NCBI GenBank assembly: GCA_947589245.1
Contig: CANQBD010000004.1
Coordinates: forward strand, 1-64,000
Length of the DNA stretch: 64,000 nt
Direction: 5' to 3'
Origin: an uncultured Anaeroplasmataceae bacterium
GTDB taxonomy: Bacteria > Bacillota_I > Bacilli_A > Acholeplasmatales > Anaeroplasmataceae
The position numbers were made by a program, and so were the translations under genes. This document shows positions 5,537-33,025 of the stretch, piece after piece. Position 1 is the stretch's first letter, and each line of letters begins with the position of its first letter. The notes below the pieces were generated by a model. That model did not search any database and was not told the origin of the DNA. It saw only the letters and a program-made list of their open reading frames with translations.

Positions 5537-5585
5537 TTGTTATATCCTTATAGTATATTGACCTATACCATATACTCCTTTCTTT

Positions 5586-7032: not shown

Positions 7033-7054
7033 TTTTTCCTCCTTATTCACCATC

Positions 7055-13956: not shown

Positions 13957-15219
13957 TTACTTAGCACCTTTTACACTATCATTAAATTGCTTAACAGCTT
14001 CTCTAATTTGAGCATCAGTTGATACAGTTCCATCAGCAAATGCAGTAGTTAAAGTTGCTGGAGCATTCCAGAATTGATCAGGTACTGCAGTTTGAGCATG
14101 AGCAAATGTTGCTTGTTCAACTAAGCACTTAACATTTTCATCATCTATAACTCTCTTTTCAGCAGCAGCTTCCTTATTACATGGAGCGATGCTTGCATGA
14201 TCAAATCTCTTTAATTGGCATTCCTTACCAGATAAGAATTTAGCTAATTCATGAGCAGCTTTCAAACGGTCAGTATCCTTACCAGCTCTTGAAGGATTAA
14301 CACCAAGTAACTTACCACCTAAGAAAGCACCAAGATGTCTTGTTTCACCGTCAATTGTAATTGTTGGCATTGGAGCACATGCATAGTTTTCATCTAATTC
14401 GTTTTTATAAGCAGCGATATCCCAAGTACCAGCAATACAACCAATAAATTTGTTGTCTGGTGTTGGAGCGGCCATATCATTAGACCAAGCTGGATGATCC
14501 ATGATTTGCTTAATTGCTTTTGCAGCTTTTACACCCTTTTCGCTATCAAAGTCAGCTGTAATTTCTTTGACACTTCCATCCTCATCAAATGACATTGAGT
14601 AGTCAGCACCGAATGTAAACATTGCAGCACCACCCCAGAATGCCTCCTTTAGATTATAGCCAAGCTTTAATCCTTTTGATTCAGCAATTTCTAAAATCTT
14701 TTCGATAGATGTAGCATCCTCTGGATTAGTAATAATAGACTTATCATATTGGAAATAATAAGTATTGTCACCTGTATAAGGATAAGCATATGTGCTTCCG
14801 TTGAATGAAGCTAAATCAAATCCTAAATCATTGTTGTTATCTTTTACCCATTTTGATTGAGTAGGGGTAAGTCTTGCTAAAGCACCTTTTTGATATAACC
14901 CTGTAATCTTATCAGATGCAAACTCAAATACATCTGGTCCAATAGTCCAGTCTTGAACTTCACTATCTACTTTATCTGGACCATGTTCAACATAAGTGAT
15001 ATTATAAGTATTTTTATCACCTGCAGCCTTTCTAGCGGCCTTGAAATCTTCAAATAAACCTACGTTAAAGTCACGGTCAGAAGCAGTACCAGAATATTCT
15101 AGTTCAATAGTCTTTCCCTCTCCGTCTAATAATGGATCATCAGTTGTTGTCTCATTGCCACAGCTAGCTAGTCCAACTGCAAGTAAAGAAACAGCACCTA
15201 GAGCAAATAATTTTTTCAT
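13957..15219 (-). CDS. malE: maltose/maltodextrin ABC transporter substrate-binding lipoprotein, MalE-like
   Basis: Signal and lipobox VGLASC; FEFASDKITGLYQKGALARL; YPYTGDNTYYFQYDKS; first gene upstream of malFG. Confidence 0.85.
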   Translation of the reverse strand: MKKLFALGAVSLLAVGLASCGNETTTDDPLLDGEGKTIELEYSGTASDRDFNVGLFEDFKAARKAAGDKNTYNITYVEHGPDKVDSEVQDWTIGPDVFEFASDKITGLYQKGALARLTPTQSKWVKDNNNDLGFDLASFNGSTYAYPYTGDNTYYFQYDKSIITNPEDATSIEKILEIAESKGLKLGYNLKEAFWGGAAMFTFGADYSMSFDEDGSVKEITADFDSEKGVKAAKAIKQIMDHPAWSNDMAAPTPDNKFIGCIAGTWDIAAYKNELDENYACAPMPTITIDGETRHLGAFLGGKLLGVNPSRAGKDTDRLKAAHELAKFLSGKECQLKRFDHASIAPCNKEAAAEKRVIDDENVKCLVEQATFAHAQTAVPDQFWNAPATLTTAFADGTVSTDAQIREAVKQFNDSVKGAK

Positions 15220-15364
15220 TTTTTCTTCCTCCTTGTTTTTTTAAATATTTGCTTTTAATAATAGAAATCTAAGAAATAAAAATAAAAACTATAACCCCTC
15301 TTAGAAATGATTTCTACTTCTTATTCTAAAATTTTCTATTAATTTATTAAAATAGGAATTTTTC

Positions 15365-16036
15365 CTAGTTCAATACACAATTAATCATCCAATGTAACCT
15401 CTTATAATTAAAACCAACTAAATCAGGAGTAATTGATTTCTTAAAGGTTAAATTAGATTGGATAAAGATTGTTTTTAAGCCTAATTCTTTGGCTGGTAGT
15501 ATGTCACATTCAATATCATTCCCTACCATTAAGGCCGTTTCCAATTTAAAATTCTTCATTGCTGATTGGAAGAATTCTAAGTTTGGCTTTTTTAGACCAT
15601 AAGCTGATGAAATTGCAATTCCATTAAAATATTTATCTATTTTCAATTTTTTCAATTCAGGTAAAGTAAATGCTTCTTGGGCATTAGATAGCACGTAAAG
15701 AAAATATCCCTCTTCCTTTAACTTTTTCAGCAATTTTTTTACCCCTCTATAAAGACGAATATATTTAGTAGATGCTTTTCTAAATTGCCAAGCTACTTCT
15801 ATTGCTTGTTGTTCTGTTATAGAAAGTAGTTCTTCAAACACCTCTAAAATAGCAGTTTCTTCTTTAGCTTTTCCTTTTTCTATACATATTTGGATATATT
15901 TGTTTTTCAATTCATCAGGAGAATAGTCATAATATTTTCTTACCTTTTTAGATATTCGCTTCCAAAACGTCATGCTAGCTTCATCTGTGTGAATATCAAT
16001 CAAGGTGCCATATAAATCAAATAATATAGCTTTCAT
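15365..16036 (-). CDS. HAD-superfamily hydrolase
   Basis: MKAILFDLYGTLID (motif I), VLSNA (motif II), KKPNLEFF and MVGNDIECDI (motifs III/IV). ATG at 16036 has an upstream GAGGAG. Confidence 0.85.
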   Translation of the reverse strand: MKAILFDLYGTLIDIHTDEASMTFWKRISKKVRKYYDYSPDELKNKYIQICIEKGKAKEETAILEVFEELLSITEQQAIEVAWQFRKASTKYIRLYRGVKKLLKKLKEEGYFLYVLSNAQEAFTLPELKKLKIDKYFNGIAISSAYGLKKPNLEFFQSAMKNFKLETALMVGNDIECDILPAKELGLKTIFIQSNLTFKKSITPDLVGFNYKRLHWMINCVLN

Positions 16037-16079
16037 ATTATACACAACTCCTCAATTTTTTCTTATAAACGCAAATATA

Positions 16080-16089
16080 CCCCCCCCCC
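16080..16089. repeat. C10/G10 homopolymeric tract
   Basis: Ten consecutive C on the plus strand in an AT-rich intergenic region, ~44 bp upstream of the HAD gene ATG. Confidence 0.9.
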
Positions 16090-16219
16090 AGTATATTTTG
16101 GGTTTAAAAATTAAAGCCTTTTTTGGCTTAGACAAAATAGCTGAGAGAGGATATCATTTCACATTATTTTATTTTCGGTTGGCTTCCCCCCCTCATAAAA
16201 GCAACGGGGGATTCCCATC

Positions 16220-16273
16220 AGATTAAGTGATGAGAACCCCCAAAAAGGAGAAAAAACTAACATCACTTAATCT
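16220..16273. repeat. perfect 13-bp inverted repeat AGATTAAGTGATG ... CATCACTTAATCT
   Basis: Arms 16220-16232 and 16261-16273, 28-nt loop, overlapping the malQ stop codon. Confidence 0.85.
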
Positions 16274-17771
16274 AATTTCGCTTATATTTCACAATATAAT
16301 TTCTAATTCGAGTTGCAAGCTTATCGGACAATTGATTTTTTAAAATTCGATAACTCCAGTTACTCGTTGAAACTGTAGCCGGTAGATTCATTCTAGATGA
16401 ACCATCTAAAGTAAGTAAATCTTGAACCGGTATGATGCAAGTATTTGCTACTGAAGCAAATGCAAGCTCTACAACCGTTTCCGTTACAGCTTCATAGTTT
16501 CCATTTTTCATTTCCACATTTAGTTTATTACATTCATCCTTTAAATCAGCAAGATATGTATGTAAACTATATGGATCAAGATCTAATATATATTGATATA
16601 GTGGCATATTATCATGGGTGCCCGTATAAACAATAAAATTTTCTTTGTAATTTGAAGGCTTATGTTCATTGTCTTTAGACCCGTCAAAAGCAAATTCCAA
16701 GATCTTCATTCCAGGATAATTGGTTTGCTTTAACAACTCTCGAACATCATCATCAATATATCCCAAGTCTTCTGCAACTATACGATAATCTAACTTATCT
16801 TTAAATAAATCAAATTTTGGGCCATCCATCCATTGGCCTACTTTAGCATTTTTCATACCATAAGGAATGGCATAATATTGGGCAAAGCCTCTAAAATGAT
16901 CGATTCTTAAAATATCATATAAAGCAAATGCTTTTTTGATTCTTTCGTTCCACCAAGCATAATTTGTTTTCTTCATATAAGACCAATCATAAATTGGATT
17001 TCCCCATAACTGACCTTCCTCTGTAAAACAATCCGGCGGACATCCCGCAACAAGCTTTGGTTCCTTTTCTTCTGTTAAAACAAATAATTCCGGATACTTC
17101 CATACTTCTACACTATCATGTGCAACATATAAAGGCATATCGCCCATAATTTCGATGCCTTTAGTCTTTGCATAGGTATGAAGCTTATTCCATTCTTCTA
17201 AGAACTCGTATTGTGTCCATATCCAAAATAAATAATCTTCTCTATGCTCTGTAAGAATCTCGGTTTCTAATTCTTTAGAATAGGACTGATACTTTTTTTC
17301 CCAAAGATTCCACTGCCGATATTCATGCATTGCTTTAATGGTCATGAATAATGCAAAATCCTTATATTCACCCTTAGCTTCAAAGAAAGTAAAGTCAGGA
17401 TCTTTCTTATCAAATTTATCATAGGCTAAATGTAAAACTTTTATCTTTTCTGTAAATAACAAGCTATAATTTACTTTTCCAGCATAGTCAAAAAACTTTC
17501 TTGTTTCATAATCCTTCTTCTTTAACAAACCTTTTTTGTGTAATATGTCAAAATCTATAAGATAATAGTTCAAGGCTGTAGAAGAAACAGATTGATACGG
17601 TGAGTCACCATAGTTAGTTGGCACAAGCGGTAAGACTTGCCATATAGACAATTCTGCTTTTTCCATCCAATCTATAAACTCATAGGCAGCAGCCCCTAAA
17701 GTTCCTACACCATGTGGAGAAGGGAGTGAAGTTACATGCAAAAGAATGCCGGCACTTCTTTTAAAATTCAT
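16272..17771 (-). CDS. malQ: 4-alpha-glucanotransferase (GH77)
   Basis: RSAGILLHVTSLPSPHGVGTLG; YGDSPYQSVSSTALN; LRIDHFRGFAQYYAIP; IVAEDLG; YTGTHDN. Confidence 0.93.
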   Translation of the reverse strand: MNFKRSAGILLHVTSLPSPHGVGTLGAAAYEFIDWMEKAELSIWQVLPLVPTNYGDSPYQSVSSTALNYYLIDFDILHKKGLLKKKDYETRKFFDYAGKVNYSLLFTEKIKVLHLAYDKFDKKDPDFTFFEAKGEYKDFALFMTIKAMHEYRQWNLWEKKYQSYSKELETEILTEHREDYLFWIWTQYEFLEEWNKLHTYAKTKGIEIMGDMPLYVAHDSVEVWKYPELFVLTEEKEPKLVAGCPPDCFTEEGQLWGNPIYDWSYMKKTNYAWWNERIKKAFALYDILRIDHFRGFAQYYAIPYGMKNAKVGQWMDGPKFDLFKDKLDYRIVAEDLGYIDDDVRELLKQTNYPGMKILEFAFDGSKDNEHKPSNYKENFIVYTGTHDNMPLYQYILDLDPYSLHTYLADLKDECNKLNVEMKNGNYEAVTETVVELAFASVANTCIIPVQDLLTLDGSSRMNLPATVSTSNWSYRILKNQLSDKLATRIRNYIVKYKRN

Positions 17772-17814
17772 AGCTACTCCTCCTTTTATTTATTTTATCG
17801 CACAACGTATATTT

Positions 17815-17852
17815 ATTGTAAAGCGTTTTCTCTTTTAATGCAAGCGTTTTTA
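17815..17852 (-). promoter_or_regulatory. malQ promoter overlapped by two LacI-family/cre-like operators
   Basis: Minus strand -35 TTGCAT (17838-17843), 17-bp spacer, -10 TACAAT (17815-17820); cre-like GTAAAGCGTTTTCT (17818-17831) and TGCAAGCGTTTTTA (17839-17852), 21 bp apart. Confidence 0.7.
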
Positions 17853-17923
17853 TAAAAAATACGAAAATTCTCAAAAAACAAATAATTTTTTCGAAAAAAT
17901 TTCGATTTAGTTACGAAAAAACA

Positions 17924-17952
17924 TTGAAATATCAATATAAAAAGCCTATAAT
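17924..17952 (+). promoter_or_regulatory. promoter for the lacI-family gene
   Basis: TTGAAA - 17 bp - TATAAT. Confidence 0.7.
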
Positions 17953-17971
17953 TAAGTAAGGGTGGGATAGA

Positions 17972-18955
17972 ATGAAAATTAAAGATATTGCAAAAGAACT
18001 TCATTTATCGGTATCTACGGTATCAAAAGCTTTAAATGGTGCCTTTGATGTTTCAAAAGAAACCAAACAAACTGTTATTGCCTATGCAAAAGCACATGGT
18101 TACAAGTCACGAGATGAAAGACTTACCGTAAAAAGTATCAGAAGGCTGTGCTTTATTTATGACAATGTAACTGCACAATTTAATATTATTATGCCTTTGG
18201 GCTTATCCTTTTCTAACTATGCACGTAAGAATAATTTTGAAGTAATACAAATAGATATTAAAAGTATCAATACTTCTTATAATGAATTTATGCAACAAAA
18301 TAACTTCGATGGAGCATTTATTGCAGGATTAAATTATAAAAGTCCATTATTAACTGAATTAAAAAACACCGTATATCCAACTGTGCTTTATGATAATATT
18401 ATGGTCGCAGATATGGTGGCAACCATTCATAATGAAAACATCAATACAATAGCCAATTTAGTAAGCCTCTTAAAACAAAACAATCATACAAAGATTGGTT
18501 TTATTCATGGAGATAAACATTCATTTGTAAGTAATGAACGCTTTGCGGGCTATATTATAGGACAAACAATGAACGATATTGAGTATAATCCAAGCTATGT
18601 CTATTATGGCGATTTCACAGAAACCTCTGGAATTGAAGCAGCCAAATACTTTATTCATACAGATGTTACTGCCGTCATCTGTGCTAGTGATTTAATGGCA
18701 ATCGGGCTAATTCATGGTCTTGAAGCGGCAGGAAAGCGCGTGCCTTTAGACATTTCAGTCACAGGCTATGATGATCTAGATGTATCTAAATATGTTAAAC
18801 CATCTTTAACTACTGTAAAACAAGACTTAGATTCAATTGGTGAAAAAGCATTCACTTTACTTACAAGTATTTTAATGAATCGATCTAGTCAAAGACTAGT
18901 TATCAGTGGCGAAATTAAGGTAAGAGAATCTATCGCAATGCATCAAGAGGCTTAA
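17972..18955 (+). CDS. LacI-family transcriptional regulator (likely maltodextrin regulator)
   Basis: N-terminal HTH MKIKDIAKELHLSVSTVSKALNGAFDVSKETKQTVIAYAKAHGY; periplasmic-binding-like effector domain; divergent from malQ. Confidence 0.9.
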   Translation: MKIKDIAKELHLSVSTVSKALNGAFDVSKETKQTVIAYAKAHGYKSRDERLTVKSIRRLCFIYDNVTAQFNIIMPLGLSFSNYARKNNFEVIQIDIKSINTSYNEFMQQNNFDGAFIAGLNYKSPLLTELKNTVYPTVLYDNIMVADMVATIHNENINTIANLVSLLKQNNHTKIGFIHGDKHSFVSNERFAGYIIGQTMNDIEYNPSYVYYGDFTETSGIEAAKYFIHTDVTAVICASDLMAIGLIHGLEAAGKRVPLDISVTGYDDLDVSKYVKPSLTTVKQDLDSIGEKAFTLLTSILMNRSSQRLVISGEIKVRESIAMHQEA

Positions 18956-18963
18956 TAATTATC

Positions 18964-18989
18964 CACCAGCTAGGCTGGTGTTTTTTTTT
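18964..18989 (+). terminator. rho-independent terminator
   Basis: CACCAGC TAG GCTGGTG followed by T9. Confidence 0.92.
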
Positions 18990-19044
18990 ACCAAAAAATA
19001 AATCTGTCAAAACAAATGACAGATTTACCAAACACTATTTAATA

Positions 19045-19995
19045 TTAATTTAAGCTTTCCTTGTATTCTTTAACTAACTTATCAGCTTTATTAACAAATT
19101 CTGCCAATAAAGACCAATTCCTTAGTTTGGCACCACTAGCTTTAGCGTGGCCACCACCCTCATATTCCTCTGCTAATTTATTAATAATAGGACCACGTGA
19201 TCTAAGCCGAATTCTAATCTCTTCTTTAGAATACTCTAATAAAATAGCCCATACCGGACAAAAGCCAATGCTTGAAATAGTAGATACTTGGGCGGCAGCA
19301 TCCTCATCACTAACTCCAAATCTTTCAATTTCTTCACGAGTAAGAGTAATATAAGCAAAACCATTTTCAGTAATTTTAAAGTTAGATAACACATAACCTC
19401 TTAACTTTAAATTTTCTAAAGTTTCAACAGAAAGTTGATTGTCCAGATAACCCAAATCAACTCCTTTATCAACTAATTCGGCAGCCACTTTAAATGTTTG
19501 GGATGTAACTGTTTCAAATTTAAATCTTGAAGTATCAGTTAGAATTCCCACATATAAAGCAGTAGCAGCTTCTTTCGTTAATACCCACTTATCCTTATTC
19601 TTTAAATATAATTCTGCAATAATTTGAGCACAAGCCGGAGCCTTAGTATCAACATATTGATAAGCCCCATAATCTTCAACAGGAATATGGTGATCAATCT
19701 TGATATATTCTTCAGCAAGATTATAACGCTTATCAGATAAACGTTCAGCAGTTGCACAATCAACACAAATTGATAAAGCACCTTTAAATAATTCTTCGCT
19801 AACCAATTCTGGTCTACCAATAAAAGCTACATAATCACTACTTTCACCAGTAATATAAACCTTTTTATTTGGATAATTTTCTTTAATTAAATAATATAAA
19901 CCATATTGACTACCAATACAATCGCCATCAGGTCTTACATGACCATGAATAATTATTGTATCATATTTTTCAATATATTCTTTTATCTTGTCCAT
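19045..19995 (-). CDS. DHH/DHHA1 phosphoesterase, NrnA-like (oligoribonuclease / pAp phosphatase family)
   Basis: IIHGHVRPDGDCIGSQYGL; CVDCATAERLS; IKIDHHIP; GILTDTSRF; EEYEGGGHAKASGAK. Start reassigned to MDKIKEYIEKYDTII at 19995. Confidence 0.88.
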   Translation of the reverse strand: MDKIKEYIEKYDTIIIHGHVRPDGDCIGSQYGLYYLIKENYPNKKVYITGESSDYVAFIGRPELVSEELFKGALSICVDCATAERLSDKRYNLAEEYIKIDHHIPVEDYGAYQYVDTKAPACAQIIAELYLKNKDKWVLTKEAATALYVGILTDTSRFKFETVTSQTFKVAAELVDKGVDLGYLDNQLSVETLENLKLRGYVLSNFKITENGFAYITLTREEIERFGVSDEDAAAQVSTISSIGFCPVWAILLEYSKEEIRIRLRSRGPIINKLAEEYEGGGHAKASGAKLRNWSLLAEFVNKADKLVKEYKESLN

Positions 19996-20003
19996 AAATC
20001 CTC

Positions 20004-22982
20004 CTATACACCATAAGCTGGCCATGTTCGCATTGGCCTAGTTATACCATTTAAAGTAATTATTGTATTAAACCATTCACTATCTTTTAAAATCGTATTA
20101 TTGTTAGAACAATTAACCTTTATTTCATTAACAGCATTAATAGTAACTGTAATGTTGCCGTTCATTGAAGCAAAATCAACAGCCTTTAAATATTCTTCAC
20201 CACCTTTTGTTGCCACTTCATAAATGGCTAAGGTTGTTACATAAATTTTATCAGTGTATTTTGCAACTCTATTTATAAAGTCTTGAGTTGGAAACATATT
20301 GTCCGTAGCATCTGTATATTCGTTAGATCCTGCACAACAACAAACACACACCACTTCCGGAGTAATTTCGGATAATAAAATTTCATTTGAAGAAGTTTTT
20401 GATCCGTGATGTCCACCTTTGAATAAACGACAATGAGGTAAATTATTTAACTCTACAAGACTCTTTTCACCATCCTCTTCTAAATCGCCTGTAAATAGAA
20501 AACGATTTTCACCATATTTCAATAAAACACAAACCGAATGGTTGTTTTCATCTGAACTTTTTTGATGATAAAATTTTTGATCTAATATTTCAAAGCTAAT
20601 CTTATCGTTGATTACAAATTCTTTTTTACCACCATTAGCGCCTGTTACACAATCTAACGCTGTATAATGCTTAGTGCCTGTAGCAACTAAGGCATCACGC
20701 TTATTTTCGTAATCCTTAGATATTTGACTTGAAGTATTTTTATAAGCATAATCAATAATAGTGTCACAATCATAAAGATCAAAAATTCCCTTATTAGACG
20801 TTCCCACAAAACCAGCTATATGATCCTCATGGGCATGAGTTGCAATGACATATTCTAATTTGCCGTCAGCTACACCATGTGTTTTTAAATAATTATCAAT
20901 TACCGTTGAGCTAGCTTTTCTTGAACCGGCATCAATTAAAATATCCGTATCGCCGGCTTTAATATATACACTATCACCAGCATAACGATTTCCTAATTCT
21001 AAGAAATGAATTTGTAAATCTTCTTCACTATAAATTGATGAGCTTTGAGCATATTCAGGATATAATACGGCAACCCATTCCGGATGATCAATAAATGGAT
21101 TACGATTCCCTTGATAGGATTGAACAACATTATTACGGTTTTTTTCTTTTTCACTGACAGGATCTTCATAGTGCCATTTTACTAATGTTTCTAATAAACC
21201 AAGTTCGCCATTCTTATCAGAGCTACCTGTTGAATGGTTAACCAGCTCTAAATCTAATTCATTGGCATCATCATAACGAACAACCATATACATTAAGGCT
21301 CTAGCAATATCACCTTTAACCTCATCTCTTGGTTCAAAATACGTGGAATTCCAACTATTTCCGTATTTATCGCTTGATCCATTAGACACTTCACCAAAGT
21401 CTTTATTATCTCGAATACCATTAATCGTTTTTTCAGAAGCAAATAAATGATGACAATCAGTATAAGCATAATAATTTTGATTGTTAAAACCATGACTCTT
21501 TGCCCAACTATGTTCACGATTCCAAACAATGCTTGAACTAGAAGCCCCGTCTCTATCACTCTTAGGAATAGATTGTCCTGTATAAATACAAATTATATTA
21601 TTTTGATTATTTGGATCTTCATCAGCATCTTGTAAAATTGTCCAGACATTTGCATAAGTATTTTTGGTGGTATGAGTGGATTTTAATAAAGTGTGTAGCG
21701 TTTCTTTAAAAGTGCTATCTAAATGCCCTACCATTGATTCATAATAATCTTCTAAATCAGGATTAGTTGGAGTATCAGGGTCTTCAGGTGTTTCTGGATC
21801 AGTAGGTTCACTTGGCTTTAGTGTGCTGCCACCCTCAACACCATAAGTAAAGGATAAAGAATAGAACCAAACAGTAAAATTTGATGATGAATTAATAAAA
21901 TATAAGTCCTCAGCATCTTCAACGACATAGGTGTAGGCAACACCATTAGTAATTTCACTAGTAGATGCCGTTTTTAAAATACCACTAGCATCTTTCCCTT
22001 GATAGAGTTTCATATTATCGTAGGTACCATAAACATTAGCAGATAAGGAATATAATACATAATCATCACCCTCAACTGTGAAGGTAATAGATTGTCCACC
22101 TAAAACACCAAATTCAGAATATTGACCATTTTCCGCAAAACCGGTCCATTTAATTTTTACTTTTGTTGTATCATTTAAGTAAATTACATATTCATCATCG
22201 GCAATAATGACTCCAAAAGGAATCGTTACAACCCCTTCTGATTTAGTAACTTTAGTCGTAATATCTACTGAATCCGAACTATCATCAGGAACATAGCCGT
22301 CATAATCACTACAAACAATAATAATCTTTTTAATATAGATAGCCTTTGAAGAGGTCTGAGTATAGTCAAAGGCTACTTTCCCATCAACACTATTAAATGT
22401 AAACAGATATTCTGTAGAAGTTGAAGTTAAAGTAGTTGAAGCCGATTTATTATCACCAACAGATACTGTAAAGGAACCACTTATTTGCGATGCACCAGAG
22501 GTCTCGATAGTAAGACTATTAACACCTTTAAATTCAATCTCTGAAATTAATTTTAAAGATTTAAATGGCTTATTACCAGAACCAAATTGTTGACCTTTTG
22601 CATTACTTGAATCATAACCCCAATAACCACCATCGCCACTAAGAGTCCATTCTACACCACCTAAATCAACAGTACCATTAGTACTAAATTTAGTAGAATC
22701 AAACATATAACTATATGTCTTTGTTGCTGGCTCTACAGGCTCCTCAGGAGTCTCTTTTGAAACTTTATAACCACAAACAAGACAAGTATCTTCTAAATAA
22801 GTATGCTTACCATAATTAGAGATCTCACTTTTATGTTCACATGTAGCATCATGCCAATGGTAATTTTCATCATAATTCCATTCGGTTTCAAATGTGTGTT
22901 CGTGAGCTGGAGTAAGTAAATTACAAGAGCACAGCATTATTAATGTCAATACTAAAATCAGGAATGTAAAAAACCTCTTCAT
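20004..22982 (-). CDS. secreted lipoprotein: Cys/His-rich N-terminus + endonuclease I domain + ComEC-like metallo-beta-lactamase domain
   Basis: Lipobox MLCSC; HEHTFETEWNYDENYHWHDATC...CLVCGY; SSSIVWNREHSWAKSHGF..YTDCHHLFASEKTINGIRDNKDFG (endonuclease I-like); LEYVIATHAHEDHIAGF, FLFTGDLEEDG, KGGHHGSKTSS (ComEC-like MBL). Confidence 0.85.
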   Translation of the reverse strand: MKRFFTFLILVLTLIMLCSCNLLTPAHEHTFETEWNYDENYHWHDATCEHKSEISNYGKHTYLEDTCLVCGYKVSKETPEEPVEPATKTYSYMFDSTKFSTNGTVDLGGVEWTLSGDGGYWGYDSSNAKGQQFGSGNKPFKSLKLISEIEFKGVNSLTIETSGASQISGSFTVSVGDNKSASTTLTSTSTEYLFTFNSVDGKVAFDYTQTSSKAIYIKKIIIVCSDYDGYVPDDSSDSVDITTKVTKSEGVVTIPFGVIIADDEYVIYLNDTTKVKIKWTGFAENGQYSEFGVLGGQSITFTVEGDDYVLYSLSANVYGTYDNMKLYQGKDASGILKTASTSEITNGVAYTYVVEDAEDLYFINSSSNFTVWFYSLSFTYGVEGGSTLKPSEPTDPETPEDPDTPTNPDLEDYYESMVGHLDSTFKETLHTLLKSTHTTKNTYANVWTILQDADEDPNNQNNIICIYTGQSIPKSDRDGASSSSIVWNREHSWAKSHGFNNQNYYAYTDCHHLFASEKTINGIRDNKDFGEVSNGSSDKYGNSWNSTYFEPRDEVKGDIARALMYMVVRYDDANELDLELVNHSTGSSDKNGELGLLETLVKWHYEDPVSEKEKNRNNVVQSYQGNRNPFIDHPEWVAVLYPEYAQSSSIYSEEDLQIHFLELGNRYAGDSVYIKAGDTDILIDAGSRKASSTVIDNYLKTHGVADGKLEYVIATHAHEDHIAGFVGTSNKGIFDLYDCDTIIDYAYKNTSSQISKDYENKRDALVATGTKHYTALDCVTGANGGKKEFVINDKISFEILDQKFYHQKSSDENNHSVCVLLKYGENRFLFTGDLEEDGEKSLVELNNLPHCRLFKGGHHGSKTSSNEILLSEITPEVVCVCCCAGSNEYTDATDNMFPTQDFINRVAKYTDKIYVTTLAIYEVATKGGEEYLKAVDFASMNGNITVTINAVNEIKVNCSNNNTILKDSEWFNTIITLNGITRPMRTWPAYGV

Positions 22983-23053
22983 AGTTTTACCTCCATTATA
23001 ATTAATTATAACATATTACCCTGGTTTAACCAAAGGTTAATTTATTTTTGGAT

Positions 23054-23086
23054 AAAAAAAGAGATAAAGCATTACGCCTTATCTCT
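23054..23086 (-). terminator. rho-independent terminator
   Basis: Minus strand AGAGATAAGGCGTAATGCTTTATCTCT followed by T7. Confidence 0.75.
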
Positions 23087-23146
23087 AGATTCATATAATT
23101 TATTAAAATTATTCAGCATGTAATTTGAGCAGACTCTTTATTAATA

Positions 23147-25225
23147 TTAATTAATAAAAGCTCCACCAACACTTACATTATAATAGTTTCCTTCTGCGGA
23201 TGGGTAACCAGTCATCACAATTTTAACTGATACAATTCCTACACCTGTTAAGGCTACACTATTATTACCAACACTTACATTGTTTATTACAGCAGTTGCA
23301 ACTTCCTCACCAGCTGCATTGTAACCATAAACTGTGAAGCAGTTTTGACTTGCTGCTGAAGTTTTTGAATTTTTATTTAAAGAGTTAATAATAATTACTA
23401 CATTAACCTCTGATTGAGCTGCAAACGTTGCAGATTGTAATCCCATATTCTCATAATTAAATTTTAAGCCACCATCACCATAGAAGCTTGGATTAGGATA
23501 TGAAGCGTTGTTTGTAAGATATGTGAAATCACCTTGAACTGCACTTTCAAATACAGAACTTGCTAACATGTCTGGTCTACCATTTAACCAATTTTCATCA
23601 ACTGGAGTTATTTGTGGATTTTTATACCAGTTTAAGAAACCATATACTGTAACTGTTGCACCAGCAGTTAATTTTTCTGATAATGTAACACTATATGCAG
23701 CAGCATTTGCATAAACTTGAATTTGCTTGTCAGCATCAACCTTAACATAATAGTTGTTACCGTCAACTACTACTTCACCAGTAACCTTTACAAGCTTACC
23801 TTGAATCTTCTCAAGCTCTTCAGTATTACCTACTAAAGAATTAATATCAGCATAAGAAGGTAATATACCAGCACCATCTACAGTAACATCATCTAATTTT
23901 TTAATAACAAATTCATTTAGACCATTATATGCTGATATAGTTGCATTAGTAACAGAAATTAATTTACCAACAACAACCTTTTCTTGCCATGTAGCTAATT
24001 CAGCTGCTTTTGTATCAGCGTCTTTGCTTCGTACGAAATATAAATAAATTGATTCACCGGCATAGTTTTGAACTGTTGCTGCCAAATATGAATTATTTAC
24101 AAGAGCTGCAGTTACAACACCTTTAAATTCATTTACTTCTGGCTCTGGCTCTGGTTCTGGTTCTACTGTACCTTGAGAAACAAGTGTGATTGAATCAGCA
24201 GCTAATGGATGAATTTGAGCAGCATTATACCAACCTAAGACACCACTAACACTAATAACTGCACCAACTTTAATTTCTAATGCCTCATAAGCTTTATAAG
24301 CATCACTATCAGTTGGTGTAATATAAGTATTAATTCTTACAACAATTTGCTTATTAGCATCTTCAGCATCACCAACAGTGATATTCCATCTGCCAGATGA
24401 ATCCTTAGAATCAACCTTAACAACTGTTAAATTAGTAAAATGAACTAATTGATTTTGATAATCTAAAGAAACGCCTGTTCCGTTAGTTACCAAAGAAGTA
24501 ATATCTGTATCCTTTGGAGTAACCTTTTCACTAGAAACTAGGTTATATGTACAACCAGCTGAACTGAATTCTCTTAAACCATTATATAATGCCTTTTCGC
24601 CAGTAACTATAATTGTATTACCAACTACTAATTCATTGGCATATTGATCTGCAGTACATTTTAATCTATAAGCATAAACACCACCAACACCACTAATGTC
24701 TTGTAAATAAACAGAAGTGTTGCCGTATGATTCAGCATATGGCTCTTTAGCTACAATAACACCTTCCATTGTTACTACTTTGCCACCACTTTCTTCATCA
24801 TATTCTTGAATAGTAGTTGCTTTAAATTTAGGTACAGTGAATTCAAATTCCTTAACATAAGAATCTGTCTTATCTGGATTTTCTAATTTAGCAGATAATT
24901 TGACTGCCTGATTACTATCAAAATTAGTAATATAATTAACTGTGATAGTATAGAAATTTCCATCTTCAGTAGCATCACCTACAGAAGCAACAGCATTTGA
25001 AGATGTCCAAGTAACAGTATAAGTTACTTTGTCATCTCCGGTAACCTTAGCAGGAACATCAAAATCACCTGTTACAGAATCTGACTTGTCTTGAGGTAAA
25101 ATAATTTTCTTAGCAGCTAATTCAGCACCGCTAGGAGCTTTGTCATTACTACCACAAGATACAAGCGTAAATAGTCCTAAAACTAAAGTTAAAACTAAAA
25201 CACTTAATTTTTTAATGCTTTTCAT
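23147..25225 (-). CDS. lipoprotein with repeated OB-fold-like (nuclease-associated) domains
   Basis: Lipobox LVSC; at least three segments of the form VTMEGVIVAKE...YLQD..GVYAYRL..VGNTIIVTGEKALYNGL, as in OB-fold domains of secreted nucleases. Confidence 0.65.
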   Translation of the reverse strand: MKSIKKLSVLVLTLVLGLFTLVSCGSNDKAPSGAELAAKKIILPQDKSDSVTGDFDVPAKVTGDDKVTYTVTWTSSNAVASVGDATEDGNFYTITVNYITNFDSNQAVKLSAKLENPDKTDSYVKEFEFTVPKFKATTIQEYDEESGGKVVTMEGVIVAKEPYAESYGNTSVYLQDISGVGGVYAYRLKCTADQYANELVVGNTIIVTGEKALYNGLREFSSAGCTYNLVSSEKVTPKDTDITSLVTNGTGVSLDYQNQLVHFTNLTVVKVDSKDSSGRWNITVGDAEDANKQIVVRINTYITPTDSDAYKAYEALEIKVGAVISVSGVLGWYNAAQIHPLAADSITLVSQGTVEPEPEPEPEVNEFKGVVTAALVNNSYLAATVQNYAGESIYLYFVRSKDADTKAAELATWQEKVVVGKLISVTNATISAYNGLNEFVIKKLDDVTVDGAGILPSYADINSLVGNTEELEKIQGKLVKVTGEVVVDGNNYYVKVDADKQIQVYANAAAYSVTLSEKLTAGATVTVYGFLNWYKNPQITPVDENWLNGRPDMLASSVFESAVQGDFTYLTNNASYPNPSFYGDGGLKFNYENMGLQSATFAAQSEVNVVIIINSLNKNSKTSAASQNCFTVYGYNAAGEEVATAVINNVSVGNNSVALTGVGIVSVKIVMTGYPSAEGNYYNVSVGGAFIN

Positions 25226-25251
25226 TTTTCTTCTCCTTAATTTTTTTTATT

Positions 25252-26568
25252 TTAACGAATGACTACGTCACTCATTGAAATAAGCTTAATTTGATATGCA
25301 CCTTCGTATTTTTCGACAATGCCTGTTACATCAAGAGTTTTACCTTCAAAATTTGAAGCTAAAACAATTTTGTTAAGATCTACATCATATTGTCCACTAC
25401 GATCAACAATAATTACCGTTCTAACTGTAATTTCAACACCATCAACTTCACAATAAATAGAAATTGCCCCATTACTGCTACTACCAGGTGTATTTGTAGT
25501 ATAAGTACTCTTAACTACTAAATTTTTTAATGTAACTAAATTAAATTCAATAGCGTGATTAGCAATATCAAGATCACTAACACTAATTTCTTGAGGAACA
25601 ACAGGTACGTTTTCTTCAACAGCTCTAAGATTATTAACATCGTTTGATAATTTTTTATCAACAACATCCGTTATTTGATAAACACCAGCCGCCTCATAAT
25701 AAGTAACGGTACCAGTAAGTTTAACTCTAACTCCAATCTGCATAATACCTGTGCTTGTTTTGTGATATACTTGAATACCATAGGTAACACCAGTTTCTAA
25801 ATCTGTATCAATTAAATAGTATTCATCACCAGCAATTCTGGCTACGGTAGCTGTTAAAGCCACCTTTTGAAGATAATATTCACTTTCATTGCCTTTTTCA
25901 GCAAGACTATCTTTTAATTCCTTTAAAGAAATTTCAGATGCTCCATCATAACAATAGCCAGGCTCTTTTTCACCCCAAATTTTAATCTTTTGGTTACGAG
26001 CTTGATTAGCCGCTTTAGCAATAACTTCTGCATAACGCTTTGAGTCACTATTGTTATTAGAAGGAGATAAGCCTTCTTGAACAAGCTCAAGATTTAACAA
26101 ACGATAATCAGCCGTTTCAGTAGCTTTATACCATACCCAAACTAGATAACGACCATAACCATCTAAGTTAGTTTTATTGCCATCTGATTCAAGTACAATT
26201 GAAACCGCATTGTTAACGATACCTTTTGTAAAAGCAGAGGCTGTTACACCCCAAGGTTCAACTTTAGCTGTTGATTCAGGGGTGTTAATGCCTAAAAATC
26301 TAAGTTTTAATATTGTGCCAGTACTATCTGTAACATGAATTGTATCACCATCAATGGCCTGAAGAAGCTTAACCTCGCCCATGCCATCTCTTTGAAATTC
26401 TTTTCCTGTAATACTAGCTGTTAATTTTGTTTCTTCTACATAATCTACTATTTCAGTAGAATTCACTGGAGGTTCTTTTTCTTCATTGTTTTCGCCACCA
26501 CAACTCATTAATTGCAATGAGAATAAGGCTACAAGAAGAAAAATTAATAAATACTTTAATTTCTTCAT
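25252..26568 (-). CDS. thermonuclease (SNase)-like lipoprotein with C-terminal OB-fold-like region
   Basis: Lipobox LMSC; VKLLQAIDGDTIHVTDSTGTILKLRFLGINTPES...NLDGYGRYLVWVWYK...LNLELVQEGLS matches the staphylococcal nuclease catalytic framework. Confidence 0.88.
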   Translation of the reverse strand: MKKLKYLLIFLLVALFSLQLMSCGGENNEEKEPPVNSTEIVDYVEETKLTASITGKEFQRDGMGEVKLLQAIDGDTIHVTDSTGTILKLRFLGINTPESTAKVEPWGVTASAFTKGIVNNAVSIVLESDGNKTNLDGYGRYLVWVWYKATETADYRLLNLELVQEGLSPSNNNSDSKRYAEVIAKAANQARNQKIKIWGEKEPGYCYDGASEISLKELKDSLAEKGNESEYYLQKVALTATVARIAGDEYYLIDTDLETGVTYGIQVYHKTSTGIMQIGVRVKLTGTVTYYEAAGVYQITDVVDKKLSNDVNNLRAVEENVPVVPQEISVSDLDIANHAIEFNLVTLKNLVVKSTYTTNTPGSSSNGAISIYCEVDGVEITVRTVIIVDRSGQYDVDLNKIVLASNFEGKTLDVTGIVEKYEGAYQIKLISMSDVVIR

Positions 26569-26584
26569 ATTTTTTTATTTAATC

Positions 26585-27964
26585 TTATAAACCTGATTGA
26601 TAATAACACTCATCAATTGCATTTTGGAAAATACGTTCAATGTCAGCGTCATTATTGCTAGCTAATTGCATAATTTGGATAAATAAAGCACCAACTTCAT
26701 CACGAGCAGTAGCTGAACCAACAAATACAGCTGAAGTGAAATAATTTTCTCTTTGAGCTAATGCTTGCTTTGCAGCAGCTGCAGCAATACCAGTTGAATA
26801 ACCATTAGCCTTAGCTAGTTCTTCTTGATATGCAGGTAAATTAGCTGCAGAATTAGTAACAGGTAAGTAACCAGTTGCTAATGCAAATCTTGCTTGAACC
26901 TGATTATTTAATAAATATTGAGTCCATAACCAAGCAGCTAATACTTGTTGAGGATTTTCATTTTTGAATAAAACTAATGATGGACCTTGAGAAATAACCT
27001 TTAAATCCTTATTAGGTGCATGAGGAATTGGGGCAACGCCTGTTTCAAATGCGCCTGCTGAATTTGCTTGATATGTAGCACCAGCTGTAGAACCAATACA
27101 CATATAAGCCTTAACTTCTGCAGATAAATCAGTCATTAAGCTGTTTGTATAAGAACCACCATTTAATTCCTGAGTTGTAAAATAACCTAAATCATACTTT
27201 TCTTTAAAAGTCTTCATAAGGCCTCTCATACCTTCGTTGTTGAAATCAAATGAGTTTGGTGAAGTATAACCATAACCATAGGTTTCAGCTAAAGTGATGA
27301 ATAAATTACCTTCACTATCATAGCCTAGAGGACAAGCGTTAGGATCAATTTGCTTAATAGCTGCACATACATCCCACATTTCATCCCAAGTTGTAGGAAC
27401 AGTTAAATGATTTTCTTCGAAGAATGTCTTATTATAGAATAATGCTTCTGTTGATCTTAAGAATGGCACTGTATAAGTAAGACCATCACCAAATTGAGCG
27501 CCTTCTTCAAGGAATGCTGTAACGAAATCCTCACGGGAAGGTGTGTCAAAAGCTACTTCAGAACCACCAAATCCATACTTAGAATTGCTCATAACATCAT
27601 CTAATGAAACAGTAATTTGAGCTTCATTATATAAAGCTACGTGGTCAGGATAGCAATAAGCCACATCTGGATATTGTTGTACACCCATATTCATAAGAAT
27701 TTGGTCACGTACATCATCATAACCACCAATGTATTCTGATTCAATTGTGATGTTTGGATAATAAACCTTAAATTCATCAATTGTCTCATTTAAATACACT
27801 TGAAGATTCTGACCCATTGTGTTCCAGAATTTAACTGTTACTGGTGTTTCTGTGTCAAATTCTTCTGGACAAGTAAAGTTTGGTCTTGCCTTTTGACCAC
27901 CACATGAAGCTAAAGTAGCAACTGTAGCAACTCCTAATAATGCTGTAATAATTTTCTTTTTCAT
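26585..27964 (-). CDS. ABC transporter substrate-binding lipoprotein (CUT1, UgpB-like)
   Basis: Lipobox LASC; VTVKFWNTMGQNLQVYLNETIDEFKVYYPNITIESEYIGGYDD; LFYNKTFFEENHLTVPTTWDEMWD. Confidence 0.85.
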   Translation of the reverse strand: MKKKIITALLGVATVATLASCGGQKARPNFTCPEEFDTETPVTVKFWNTMGQNLQVYLNETIDEFKVYYPNITIESEYIGGYDDVRDQILMNMGVQQYPDVAYCYPDHVALYNEAQITVSLDDVMSNSKYGFGGSEVAFDTPSREDFVTAFLEEGAQFGDGLTYTVPFLRSTEALFYNKTFFEENHLTVPTTWDEMWDVCAAIKQIDPNACPLGYDSEGNLFITLAETYGYGYTSPNSFDFNNEGMRGLMKTFKEKYDLGYFTTQELNGGSYTNSLMTDLSAEVKAYMCIGSTAGATYQANSAGAFETGVAPIPHAPNKDLKVISQGPSLVLFKNENPQQVLAAWLWTQYLLNNQVQARFALATGYLPVTNSAANLPAYQEELAKANGYSTGIAAAAAKQALAQRENYFTSAVFVGSATARDEVGALFIQIMQLASNNDADIERIFQNAIDECYYQSGL

Positions 27965-27985
27965 TTTCTTCTCCTATTTCTTTTT

Positions 27986-28915
27986 TTATCCCTTAGTACC
28001 GCTTCTAGCTACGCCCCTCATGATATATTTTCTAAAGAAAACAAATATCAAGAATAGCGGAATAGAAACGATAGTAACGGCCGCCATGTTTAATGGATAA
28101 TCAATCATGCCTGTTGCTGTATCTGTAAAAGCAGACCGTAATCCATTTGTGATAAGCCAGTAGCTACCATCTGTTCCAGATGATACAAGTCTTGGCCAAA
28201 TATAAGAATTCCATGCCCCCATCATTTTCATAATGGTAATTGTAATAATTGTAGGCATAGCAAGTGGAATCATAACCTTAGTTAGATATTTAAAATCGCT
28301 TGTTCCATCAACCTTAGCAGCATAATATAAGGAATCTGGAATTTGCTTGAAGTTTTGTCTTAATAAATAAATATAGAAGACACTCACTAAGAATGGAACA
28401 ATTAATACTACATAAGAGTTTTTCCAACCCCATAAAGTAACTGTATTAAAGTTTGTTAAAGTAAACATTTCACCTGGAATCATCATTGTTGCAAGTAAAA
28501 GACTAAATAATAAATCGCGCCCTTTAAACTTCAACCTTGAGAAAGCGAAAGCTGATAAAATTGTAATAATTAAAGATAGAAATGTTGAAACAACGCCAAC
28601 GATTACGGTATTTAACATATATCTACCAAAATCTGCACCATTAGCTGTCCAAGCTCTAGCATAATTATCCCATCTAACATCAAGTGGAACAAATGTTGGT
28701 ACTGCCTTGTTATATTCTTCTAATGTTTTTAGTGATGAGTTAATCATCCAATAGAATGGGAATATCATAATTAAGGCAACCAAAATCAATAGTGCATAAA
28801 TAATAACAAGTCTTACTACTTTAAAAATCTTTTGATTTCTTTCTGCTCGCTTAAGTTGATCGGCAGATTTAATGTAAGATGATAATAGTTGTTCGTTTTC
28901 TACTGTCTTTTGCAT
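27986..28915 (-). CDS. CUT1 ABC transporter permease (UgpE/MalG-like)
   Basis: PDSLYYAAKVDGTSDFKYLTKVMIPLAMP EAA motif, six hydrophobic segments. Confidence 0.85.
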   Translation of the reverse strand: MQKTVENEQLLSSYIKSADQLKRAERNQKIFKVVRLVIIYALLILVALIMIFPFYWMINSSLKTLEEYNKAVPTFVPLDVRWDNYARAWTANGADFGRYMLNTVIVGVVSTFLSLIITILSAFAFSRLKFKGRDLLFSLLLATMMIPGEMFTLTNFNTVTLWGWKNSYVVLIVPFLVSVFYIYLLRQNFKQIPDSLYYAAKVDGTSDFKYLTKVMIPLAMPTIITITIMKMMGAWNSYIWPRLVSSGTDGSYWLITNGLRSAFTDTATGMIDYPLNMAAVTIVSIPLFLIFVFFRKYIMRGVARSGTKG

Positions 28916-28927
28916 CAGCGTTACCTC

Positions 28928-29854
28928 CTAATAGTGTACTCTCTTCTTACTTACAAGGAATTGAATGCCTGTAAATAGAAGGATAACTAAAAATAGAACT
29001 ACAGCACCGGCAGCAGCACGACCTGTAAATTGACCTGTCATGGAATCATAAATGAAGCCAACCATTGTATTCATATTATAAATTCTTAAATTTTCACCAA
29101 AAATACCTACAACTGAAGAATATTCCTTAAAAGCCCCAATAAAACCGGTAACTACAACATATAGCACCATTGGTGAAATAAGTGGAACAGTTATCTTTGT
29201 GAATACTCTTCTTTGAGGAGTACCATCAACTTTGGCAGCATCATAATATTGCTTATTAACTGATTGTAAAGCTCCCATAAAAATTAAAATCTTAAATGGC
29301 AAGGCATTCCAAACAGAATAAATGCATAATACAAATAGGTTACGAAGGTGTTGGGCACTAAATAAATCAACCGCACTAGCAATCCAAGTTGGTGAAGATT
29401 CAGCAGGCATCCCAAACGCATGTAGTAACATATTGAATAAACCATCGTTGTTTACAGTTTTATCAAAAATCATTGCAAATACCATACCGATAGCAACAGA
29501 GTTGGTTACATATGGTAAGAAGTAGATTGTTTGTAAAAAGCTTCTTAATGGTTTAATACTATTAAGTCCAACAGCTATTAGAAGACTTAATATTGTTGAA
29601 ATTGGAACAGTAATAAAAGCAATTAACATGGTGTTAGTAAAACCCGCAATAAATTGTTTATTACCAGTAATAACATCAACATAATTTTGAACACCGACAG
29701 CAAAATCTACTCCCGCTGCGGCAAAGGTTGTCTTATAACCATTTAAAAATGAAATACCGATTGTATTTATCATTGGATAAAAGGTAAAGACTAACAACAA
29801 TAGGACTGCTGGACCTAGATAAATCCAAGCCTTCCATTGATTTTTTGTTTCCAT
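28928..29854 (-). CDS. CUT1 ABC transporter permease (UgpA/MalF-like)
   Basis: NKQYYDAAKVDGTPQRRVFTKITVPLISP EAA motif. Confidence 0.85.
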   Translation of the reverse strand: METKNQWKAWIYLGPAVLLLLVFTFYPMINTIGISFLNGYKTTFAAAGVDFAVGVQNYVDVITGNKQFIAGFTNTMLIAFITVPISTILSLLIAVGLNSIKPLRSFLQTIYFLPYVTNSVAIGMVFAMIFDKTVNNDGLFNMLLHAFGMPAESSPTWIASAVDLFSAQHLRNLFVLCIYSVWNALPFKILIFMGALQSVNKQYYDAAKVDGTPQRRVFTKITVPLISPMVLYVVVTGFIGAFKEYSSVVGIFGENLRIYNMNTMVGFIYDSMTGQFTGRAAAGAVVLFLVILLFTGIQFLVSKKRVHY

Positions 29855-29867
29855 AGGCTTCCTCCTC

Positions 29868-31001
29868 CTAGTTTTCTAAAGTAGCTTCAGTAGCTTCTGT
29901 TTCACTAACTTCTTCTGGTTTAACTAGTGGTTCTTTGCCTAAGCGATATTCAGTCTGTCTGTTAAATAAATAGACCTTATTAGGTTTAAGGTTAAATTTA
30001 ACAATTCCTGAAGCAGGAACCTTAACATCCGCATCTACAATTGAACGAATAGTAGGTTTTTCAGAAGCCGGATTCTTAGAAATAATTGAAATATCTCTAC
30101 CCATTACCTCTAACTGATAAATTTCACAAGATAAAACGCCTTTATCAGAAACCACAAATCCTTCTGGACGAACACCAACATAAACCTCTTGGTCTTCAAA
30201 CTCAGTATCCATAATTGGTTCGTTATTAATATAAACTTTATGATCTCTAATTTCACCTAAGAAAACGTTAATAGGCGGTGTTCCTAAGAACTTAGCAACA
30301 AATAGATTTACAGGATCATCATAAACCTTTTGAGGAACATCAACTTGTTGCATAACGCCTTCTTTCATAACAACTATGAAATCAGAAATACTCATCGCTT
30401 CTTCTTGGTCGTGTGTTACGAAAACAGTTGTAACGCCTGTCTCTCTTTGAATTCTCTTAATTTCTTCTCTTGTTTGTAATCTTAATCTCGCGTCAAGATT
30501 AGATAATGGTTCATCTAATAATAAAACATTTGGATTTTTTACCAATGCACGAGCGATAGCAACTCGCTGTTGCTGACCGCCTGATAACTCATTAGGCTTT
30601 CTATCCAAAAGGTTGTCAATCTGAACTAAACGAGCTGCATTTAGACACCTTTCATCAGCTTCTTTTTTACTAACCCGCATATTAGTAAGTGGAAACTTAA
30701 TGTTTTGTTCAACAGTCATATGTGGATACAAAGCATAATTTTGGAATACTAACCCAATTCCACGCTTCTCGGGAGCTAACTGTGTAACATCTAAATCCCC
30801 AAAATAAATTTGACCAGCTGTTGGGGCTTGTAAACCACTTATCATAAATAAAGTAGTAGATTTACCACAGCCAGAAGGACCTAAAAGACCAACTAATTTT
30901 CCATCAGGAATCTCAATGTCCAAATTATCAACTGCTCTTACCTCTGACTTAGTCTTCTTGTTAACAAAGACCTTCGTTAAATTCTTAAGTACAATCTTCA
31001 T
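29868..31001 (-). CDS. CUT1 ABC transporter ATPase (UgpC/MsmX-like)
   Basis: GPSGCGKST, ELSGGQQQRVAIARAL, VLLLDEPLSNLDARLR, FVTHDQEEAM; normal-length C-terminal domain. Confidence 0.9.
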   Translation of the reverse strand: MKIVLKNLTKVFVNKKTKSEVRAVDNLDIEIPDGKLVGLLGPSGCGKSTTLFMISGLQAPTAGQIYFGDLDVTQLAPEKRGIGLVFQNYALYPHMTVEQNIKFPLTNMRVSKKEADERCLNAARLVQIDNLLDRKPNELSGGQQQRVAIARALVKNPNVLLLDEPLSNLDARLRLQTREEIKRIQRETGVTTVFVTHDQEEAMSISDFIVVMKEGVMQQVDVPQKVYDDPVNLFVAKFLGTPPINVFLGEIRDHKVYINNEPIMDTEFEDQEVYVGVRPEGFVVSDKGVLSCEIYQLEVMGRDISIISKNPASEKPTIRSIVDADVKVPASGIVKFNLKPNKVYLFNRQTEYRLGKEPLVKPEEVSETEATEATLEN

Positions 31002-31114
31002 TTTTTTACTCCTTAGTTCTTAAATTATCTAATTTTTTTAAGACGTTAGATTTTTCTTTTAATTTTTCTATAAAAACCCCTCTAGAAAAACAAGCAAAAA
31101 ACACACGCGCTTAC

Positions 31115-31130
31115 ATGTTAATTTTAACAT
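31115..31130. promoter_or_regulatory. candidate operator palindrome ATGTTAA-TT-TTAACAT
   Basis: 7-bp perfect arms, 2-nt centre, ~115 bp upstream of the transporter/nuclease cluster. Confidence 0.35.
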
Positions 31131-31294
31131 AAGCTTACTAAAAATTAAATAGAATAAACAGAAAAAAAACAAAAAAGAACACATTTTCCTAAAAAAATTC
31201 CTTATTTTAAATTCAATTGTAAAGAATAATTAACATTAATTACCATTTTTAGTTATGACTAACTATTTTTTTGAGTTTTTTTGGCAAAGAAAAA

Positions 31295-31314
31295 GCCAAA
31301 AATTTATTTTGGCC
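31295..31314 (-). terminator. probable rho-independent terminator of asnS
   Basis: Minus strand GGCCAAAATAAATTTTTGGC followed by TTTTTC. Confidence 0.6.
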
Positions 31315-31374
31315 AAAGTAAAATACTAAAGTAAAATACTAATGTAAATATTATATATATTATATTTATATTTG

Positions 31375-32757: not shown

Positions 32758-32777
32758 CTTTTTTCCTCCTAAAATAT

Positions 32778-33025
32778 AAAAAAGTCCTTAAATTTAAAAA
32801 TTTAAGGACGATTTGCTCGCGGTGCCACCTTAATTCTATAAATTGTTTGAAAAATTTATAGCTCTTAATTTAATCTTTAACGCAGAAAATACGAATGGTT
32901 CTACTCTAATTTCTTCCATCACTCAGAGGTGTTAAATACTATCATTCATTACCTATTTTTCACCAACCATAGATTCTCTTAAAATGAATTTTGATAGACC
33001 CTTCCTCATCTTAGTTTTAACAATA
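32778..33025 (-). promoter_or_regulatory. T-box leader upstream of asnS
   Basis: Minus strand AAGGTGGCACCGCGAGC T-box motif, GTCCTTAAATTT...AAATTTAAGGAC terminator with U tract, specifier-like AAC (Asn) at 32931-32933 before CCTCTGAG. Confidence 0.92.

Follow-up and report, generated by a model that had tools for sequence, protein, structure and literature searches.

An endonuclease I and ComEC-like metallo-beta-lactamase fusion lipoprotein in a probable nucleic-acid scavenging locus of an uncultured Anaeroplasmataceae bacterium

In Mycoplasma, a thermonuclease (SNase) is co-transcribed with a sugar-type ABC importer that has been proposed to take up nucleic-acid precursors (PMC3585158), and an ABC permease of M. 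bovis annotated for glycerol has recently been implicated in nucleoside uptake (PMC12838404). DNA-degradation loci of the Izemoplasmatales encode several secreted nucleases together with ABC transporters inferred to import nucleosides or nucleobases (PMC8289736). Two cultivated Izemoplasmatales grow better when supplied with DNA or with DNA plus RNA (PMC8397711, PMC10470597), and many genes of a Hujiaoplasma locus containing NrnA and ABC transporters respond to DNA plus RNA by induction (PMC10470597). The metallo-beta-lactamase (MBL) domain of ComEC is a Mn2+-dependent DNA nuclease (PMC8579336; PMC12455585) that displays both endo- and 5'-3' exonuclease activity in vitro (PMC12455585).

Here we describe a locus within a 64,000-nucleotide stretch of DNA (the window) from an uncultured Anaeroplasmataceae bacterium, a gut-dwelling relative of the mycoplasmas. 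A single gene of this locus joins an endonuclease I (EndA) domain to a ComEC-like MBL domain (Table 1). Read along the minus strand, the genes encode an ABC ATPase, two permeases, a solute-binding lipoprotein, an SNase, an OB-fold lipoprotein, the fusion protein and NrnA. The segment from 25252 to 31001, where the SNase lies beside the ATPase, both permeases and the solute-binding lipoprotein, has the composition of the Mycoplasma-type operon. Over the longer interval from 19045 to 31001, several secreted nucleases are combined with an ABC transporter and further nucleases, a composition that resembles the published description of the Izemoplasmatales loci.

Table 1. Predicted features of the locus and of the fusion protein, in order of position in the window.
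Feature	Position	Strand	Basis
NrnA (DHH/DHHA1 oligoribonuclease/pAp phosphatase), cytosolic	19045..19995	-	Pfam, NCBIfam
EndA-MBL fusion lipoprotein, 992 aa	20004..22982	-	ORF list; Pfam; no second fusion found
ComEC-like MBL domain, residues 650-992 (Lactamase_B core 667-881)	20007..21035	-	Pfam, NCBIfam, fold, ligands
Fusion joint LYPEYAQSSSIYSEEDLQIHF: EndA C-terminus, linker of ~9 residues, start of MBL core	21003..21065	-	Alignment
Endonuclease_1 (EndA/Vvn-type) domain, residues 424-635; WNREHSW and INGIRDN motifs	21078..21713	-	Pfam, motifs, alignment
N-terminal region of the fusion protein: Cys/His-rich and two beta-rich stretches	21828..22904	-	Without Pfam family
Lipobox LCSC, residues 17-20, after hydrophobic signal helix	22923..22934	-	Motif position; predicted helix 2-18
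Terminator-like hairpin with T run, strong, between the OB and fusion genes	23060..23086	-	Hairpin scan
OB-fold lipoprotein, 692 aa, putative nucleic-acid binder	23147..25225	-	Pfam PF01336; fold matches
Thermonuclease (SNase) lipoprotein with C-terminal OB/DUF5689-like part	25252..26568	-	Pfam, NCBIfam, alignment
ABC solute-binding lipoprotein (SBP_bac_8; sugar/UgpB-like)	26585..27964	-	Pfam; similarity search
ABC permease, UgpE-like	27986..28915	-	Pfam, NCBIfam
ABC permease (BPD_transp_1)	28928..29854	-	Domain search
ABC ATPase	29868..31001	-	Domain search

The transporter is classed by its sequence as a CUT1-type importer. The SNase and the EndA of this locus are the only ones encoded in the genome. 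At the position of SNase Asp40 the window SNase has Asn (LGINTPE), which may weaken the enzyme, and six relatives (L002-L007) have Asp. The model of the OB-fold lipoprotein matches OB proteins that bind single strands (Teb1, CST, SSB, RPA and HIN-200) with modest scores. NrnA likely starts at 19995, eight bases past the stop codon of the fusion gene, and has a good ribosome-binding site of its own. Because of the hairpin upstream of the fusion gene, the locus may be transcribed as two units, with the fusion gene and nrnA on their own transcript. An Rfam scan of positions 15000-33000 yielded no match, and a promoter scan returned 47 candidates against 58.6 expected, which is not above chance. 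Also nearby, between 7055 and 17771, is a maltodextrin-type cluster comprising genes for an ABC ATPase, two permeases, an alpha-amylase, a solute-binding protein and a 4-alpha-glucanotransferase-like protein.

The gene order is the same in relatives L002-L007, and variants of it occur in three further genomes (G034, G038 and G050). In these three, the SNase, OB and MBL genes adjoin the ABC importer, as does the EndA gene in G034 and G038; NrnA is not adjacent to the locus in G034 and G038. The G034 locus (L059) includes an additional lipoprotein gene (4592-5935, minus strand) whose product has a barnase-like C-terminus (PF00545, E 0.0059, under the Pfam cut-off) and which would widen the locus to RNA. 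In the G038 locus (L060), the SNase (6589-7812, minus strand) carries a fused lamin tail domain (PF00932, with an E value of 5e-8 that lies just below the cut-off), and in this it resembles a large lamin-tail nuclease protein described from the Izemoplasmatales.

The fusion gene begins with ATG and remains open for 992 codons with no internal stop. A first-pass annotation made from the letters alone had proposed a single ORF of this length with a lipobox, a Cys/His-rich module, beta-rich domains, an EndA-like nuclease and an MBL domain; each of these elements is present, its domain coordinates hold to within a few tens of bases, and the motifs that it quoted were all located (WNREHSW at residues 487-493, TDCHHLFASEKTINGIRDN at 508-526, THAHEDH at 715-721, FTGDLEE at 830-836 and GGHHGS at 856-861). 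The protein is predicted to be a surface lipoprotein on the outer face of the cytoplasmic membrane. Its Cys/His-rich stretch covers residues ~27-72 and its beta-rich stretches residues ~86-228 and ~245-385, the latter taken from a structure model of low confidence; similar N-terminal stretches occur in EndA paralogues, and relatives have them in a neighbouring lipoprotein as well. In the model of the whole protein, the MBL part alone is reliable, and the EndA domain and N-terminal region are of low confidence.

Both catalytic domains score above the Pfam cut-offs, as the first-pass annotation would lead one to expect. Endonuclease_1 (PF04231) matches with an E value of 6.1e-47 and 160.8 bits against a cut-off of 25, covering positions 4-235 of the 235-position profile. 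Candidate counterparts of the catalytic Glu-His pair and the metal-binding Asn of Vibrio vulnificus Vvn are present in REH (residues 489-491) and NGIRDN. The NGxRxN and QGNxNPF segments align with the Vvn structure (PDB 1oup), an alignment that stopped short of the EH motif. The window protein shares with the endonuclease I family the Pfam domain and these two aligned segments, and differs from it in being predicted to be lipid-anchored and in being joined to an MBL.

The second domain, Lactamase_B, was identified at residues 667-881 (E 2.1e-15; score 57.6 bits, cut-off 22.7). The best NCBIfam match of this region is ComEC_Rec2 (E 6.9e-20), which falls under the full-length cut-off of that model, as expected because the MBL domain comes without the channel; the Competence transmembrane domain (PF03772) had no Pfam match in the 992-residue protein. 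Among solved structures, ComEC chains gave the strongest sequence matches (9vc6, E 3e-10; 9ic4, E 5e-7), and the best match was again ComEC when a profile of eight relatives was used. The MBL region of the structure model is mostly confident, with pLDDT block means mostly between 70 and 95, and its first Foldseek match is the MBL of Moorella glycerini ComEC (9ic4, E 2.4e-13, target TM 0.76). The earlier assignment of a ComEC-like MBL is therefore upheld by sequence and by predicted fold.

The putative metal ligands H716, H718, D720, H721, N813, D833 and H858, with S861, make up a ComEC-type set. The ComEC residues H598-x-D600-x-D602-H603, D700, H725 and S728 (PMC12455585) correspond to H716-x-H718-x-D720-H721, D833, H858 and S861 of the window protein. 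The ligands are kept in 27 of 30 loci, and the third position of HxHxDH alternates between His, as in the window protein, and Asp, as in several relatives (27 loci tabulated). Taken at the level of sequence, the active site of the MBL looks intact, and that of EndA probably is too.

Foldseek placed the phosphorylcholine esterase Pce of pneumococcus second (E 5.9e-11), and the His-rich motif II, HAHEDH, is Pce-like in a published comparison (PMC8579336). The MBL could accordingly be an esterase acting on phosphorylcholine or other phosphodiesters of surface polymers or lipids, in which case its joining to EndA would be accidental and EndA alone would act on DNA. We consider this unlikely, given that ComEC outranks Pce by fold, that no Pce sequence was matched among solved structures at an E value of 0.01, and that the neighbouring genes all point to nucleic acids. 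Anaeroplasma also lacks a cell wall and hence teichoic acid, which counts against an esterase of this kind. Finally, motif III carries Asn (N813) as in ComEC, where Pce has His (PMC8579336). Since the MBL of ComEC is a Mn2+-dependent nuclease, the MBL of the fusion protein is most simply read as a nuclease too. For the same reason, the pairing of an endonuclease with an exo- or endonuclease that the first-pass annotation had suggested appears sound, by analogy with the activity since published for ComEC. The MBL of ComEC is a better nuclease with the OB fold that its own chain carries, and the separate OB lipoprotein encoded beside the MBL of the window parallels this arrangement.

We next consider how the two domains came to be joined. 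In five of eight close relatives (L003-L007, Anaeroplasmataceae MAGs), EndA (~335 aa) and MBL (~510 aa) are encoded by neighbouring separate genes; L002 and L009 have the MBL gene alone at that position, and L008 begins at the MBL. The separate MBL of relatives is usually preceded by a DUF2188 domain, a membrane helix and a Listeria-Bacteroides repeat, and the region coding for this anchor is missing from the window fusion, where the EndA C-terminus (...NRNPFIDHPEWVAVLYPE) passes through about nine residues directly to the MBL core (...DLQIHFLELGN). Most likely, two genes that lie side by side in relatives were joined in this lineage alone, and the membrane anchor of the MBL itself was replaced in the process. 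No other ORF with both domains was found among 55 genomes of the family or 160 of the order, and a literature search, of incomplete coverage, returned no published EndA-MBL fusion.

The single occurrence among the 160 genomes of the order, and the draft state of the source genome (35 contigs), would also be expected if an assembly or sequencing artefact had united two adjacent genes. This is extremely unlikely: the joint is in frame and falls exactly at the domain borders, the ORF is open across its whole length, the N-terminus differs from that of the EndA of relatives, and the sequence coding for the anchor is absent rather than shifted. A frameshift that merged two genes was likewise ruled out, because the anchor is gone and EndA runs straight into the MBL core.

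The EndA domain of the fusion is closer to the operon EndA of relatives (59-64%) than to larger EndA paralogues (44-50%), which the N-terminal beta region of the protein resembles. The fusion protein is therefore a mosaic, its EndA domain being nearest to the operon copy and its N-terminal beta region paralogue-like. In another genome (G042:C32:10233-12994), tandem genes encode larger EndA lipoproteins of ~680 aa that have the N-terminal beta region of the window protein, an apparent sign that domains have been shuffled between the surface nucleases of the genus.

PurC, PurH and PyrB were not found in the source genome, a draft in 35 contigs that is 92.6% complete and in which absences could be gaps. 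Counting the source genome, 10 of 11 genomes in the genus lack the same three genes, an absence that recurs in several near-complete relatives, and they are present in 40, 39 and 40, respectively, of the 44 genomes from the rest of the family. Judging from this gene content, the source bacterium is apparently unable to synthesize nucleotides. No BMP-type nucleoside receptor and no NCS2 permease was found in the genome, which encodes two proteins with a 5'-nucleotidase C-terminal domain. G044 is the sole genome of the genus with PurC, PurH and PyrB, and offers a natural comparison for timing the loss of nucleotide synthesis.

We propose that the fusion is probably a surface-anchored two-nuclease protein in a locus for nucleic-acid scavenging. 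The domains and motifs, the gene order and its conservation, and the missing nucleotide-synthesis genes were observed directly, and from them we infer what the enzymes do, in which order they act and what is transported. The SNase and the EndA domain would cut extracellular DNA, and perhaps RNA, internally, and the OB-fold lipoproteins would hold the strands. The MBL, tethered to EndA, would trim the fragments, at 5' ends or by internal cuts, to short oligonucleotides and nucleotides. The resulting small molecules would enter through the CUT1-type importer, either as they are or after surface 5'-nucleotidases have taken off phosphate, and cytosolic NrnA would finish any short oligonucleotides. 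A bolder version, in which the fusion makes oligonucleotides of a set size that the importer takes in whole and that NrnA, produced directly after the fusion protein, converts to nucleotides, is doubtful, but if true it would constitute an ABC route of nucleotide salvage that skips dephosphorylation outside the cell.

Given this apparent inability to synthesize nucleotides, digestion of external DNA and import of the pieces seems the most likely use of the locus. Auxotrophy is only part of the reason for such loci; it is not required, because relatives that keep nucleotide synthesis, such as G034 and G038, carry the same locus type. The solute-binding protein resembles binders of sugars and of glycerophosphate (UgpB-type), so the cargo could be something other than nucleic-acid products. 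The terminator-like hairpin that parts the OB gene from the fusion gene also counts against this reading.

The first-pass annotation had in addition hinted at a ComEC-like strand removal in competence. This part was not supported: another contig of the genome encodes ComEA and a ComEC that has an MBL of its own, and the scavenging locus therefore need not serve competence, which was rejected as its main role on this ground. The annotation had mentioned neither the operon nor the fact that close relatives encode the two domains separately. The company of the fusion gene, with an ABC importer, an SNase, an OB-fold protein and NrnA, points to nutrient scavenging rather than to a competence-type role. 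The fusion could nevertheless assist competence if EndA nicked DNA, as it does in pneumococcus, and the MBL then removed the second strand to give ssDNA for ComEC-mediated transformation. The ComEC-like character of the MBL, the presence of ComEA and ComEC, and the degradation of the non-transforming strand by pneumococcal EndA (PMC8579336) would fit such a helper; we hold it to be quite improbable, as the ComEC of this genome already has an MBL, and comEA and comEC lie apart from a fusion/MBL locus whose company of ABC importer, SNase and NrnA is also found in relatives.

In several bacteria, S. sanguinis among them (PMC4118848), surface nucleases dissolve neutrophil traps or biofilm DNA, and the nucleases of the window could act against host or competitors in this way rather than in feeding. 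The constant linkage to an ABC importer and, within the genus, to cytosolic NrnA fits feeding better, as does the missing purine and pyrimidine synthesis, and we give the anti-host role very little credence as the alternative to it; the two roles are compatible and not mutually exclusive. If scavenging is correct, the parts of a likely nucleic-acid import route can be named in gut Anaeroplasma relatives that lack purine and pyrimidine synthesis. The natural EndA-MBL fusion is itself evidence that both enzymes share a substrate, and the importer encoded next to it offers a clear way to test which form of nucleic acid is imported, a question shared with the mycoplasmas.

Among known systems, YhcR of B. 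subtilis is a Ca2+-dependent endonuclease that is sorted to the cell wall, has a different domain set, and reclaims DNA for phosphate. It has in common with the fusion protein that it is a large surface-anchored nuclease for reclaiming extracellular DNA (PMC11458576). The SNase-ABC operons of Mycoplasma (M. agalactiae MAG_5040; M. hyopneumoniae mhp379) share with the window an SNase beside a sugar-type ABC importer and binding lipoprotein, though the gene order differs from that described for MAG_5030-5070 (PMC3585158), and to their one nuclease the window locus adds EndA, MBL, an OB protein and NrnA. The Ca. Izemoplasmatales loci (Wasmund et al. 2021, PMC8289736) likewise cluster several secreted nucleases, nucleic-acid-binding proteins and ABC transporters, include further 3'-5' nucleases or phosphohydrolases, and belong to wall-less relatives of Bacilli. 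Relative to that description, the window differs in coming from a gut/rumen family and in having a ComEC-like MBL and EndA fused in one lipoprotein; unlike in those loci, no phosphate transporter was identified among the flanking genes examined. The nucleic-acid locus described for Hujiaoplasma nucleasis zrk29 (PMC10470597) also combines NrnA and ABC transporters with secreted nuclease genes, and an extracellular ribonuclease is named there where the window has EndA-MBL.

Compared with the MBL of ComEC (M. glycerini BLACT, PDB 9ic4; PMC12455585, PMC8579336), the MBL of the window has the same fold, metal-ligand set, motif III Asn and HHGS. It differs in having no channel domain, MBLs of this type being anchored by lipid or by a membrane helix of their own, in the His that replaces Asp at the third position of motif II in most MBLs of these loci, and in that its candidate partner OB fold sits on another protein. 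Collectively, the window locus belongs to a published kind, that of the Izemoplasmatales loci, with a minimal nuclease and ABC version in Mycoplasma. What is apparently new, with respect to a literature covered incompletely and in part, is the ComEC-like MBL as a regular stand-alone component of such loci in Anaeroplasmataceae and its fusion to EndA, which would tie a ComEC-type nuclease domain, known from DNA uptake in transformation, to feeding on DNA.
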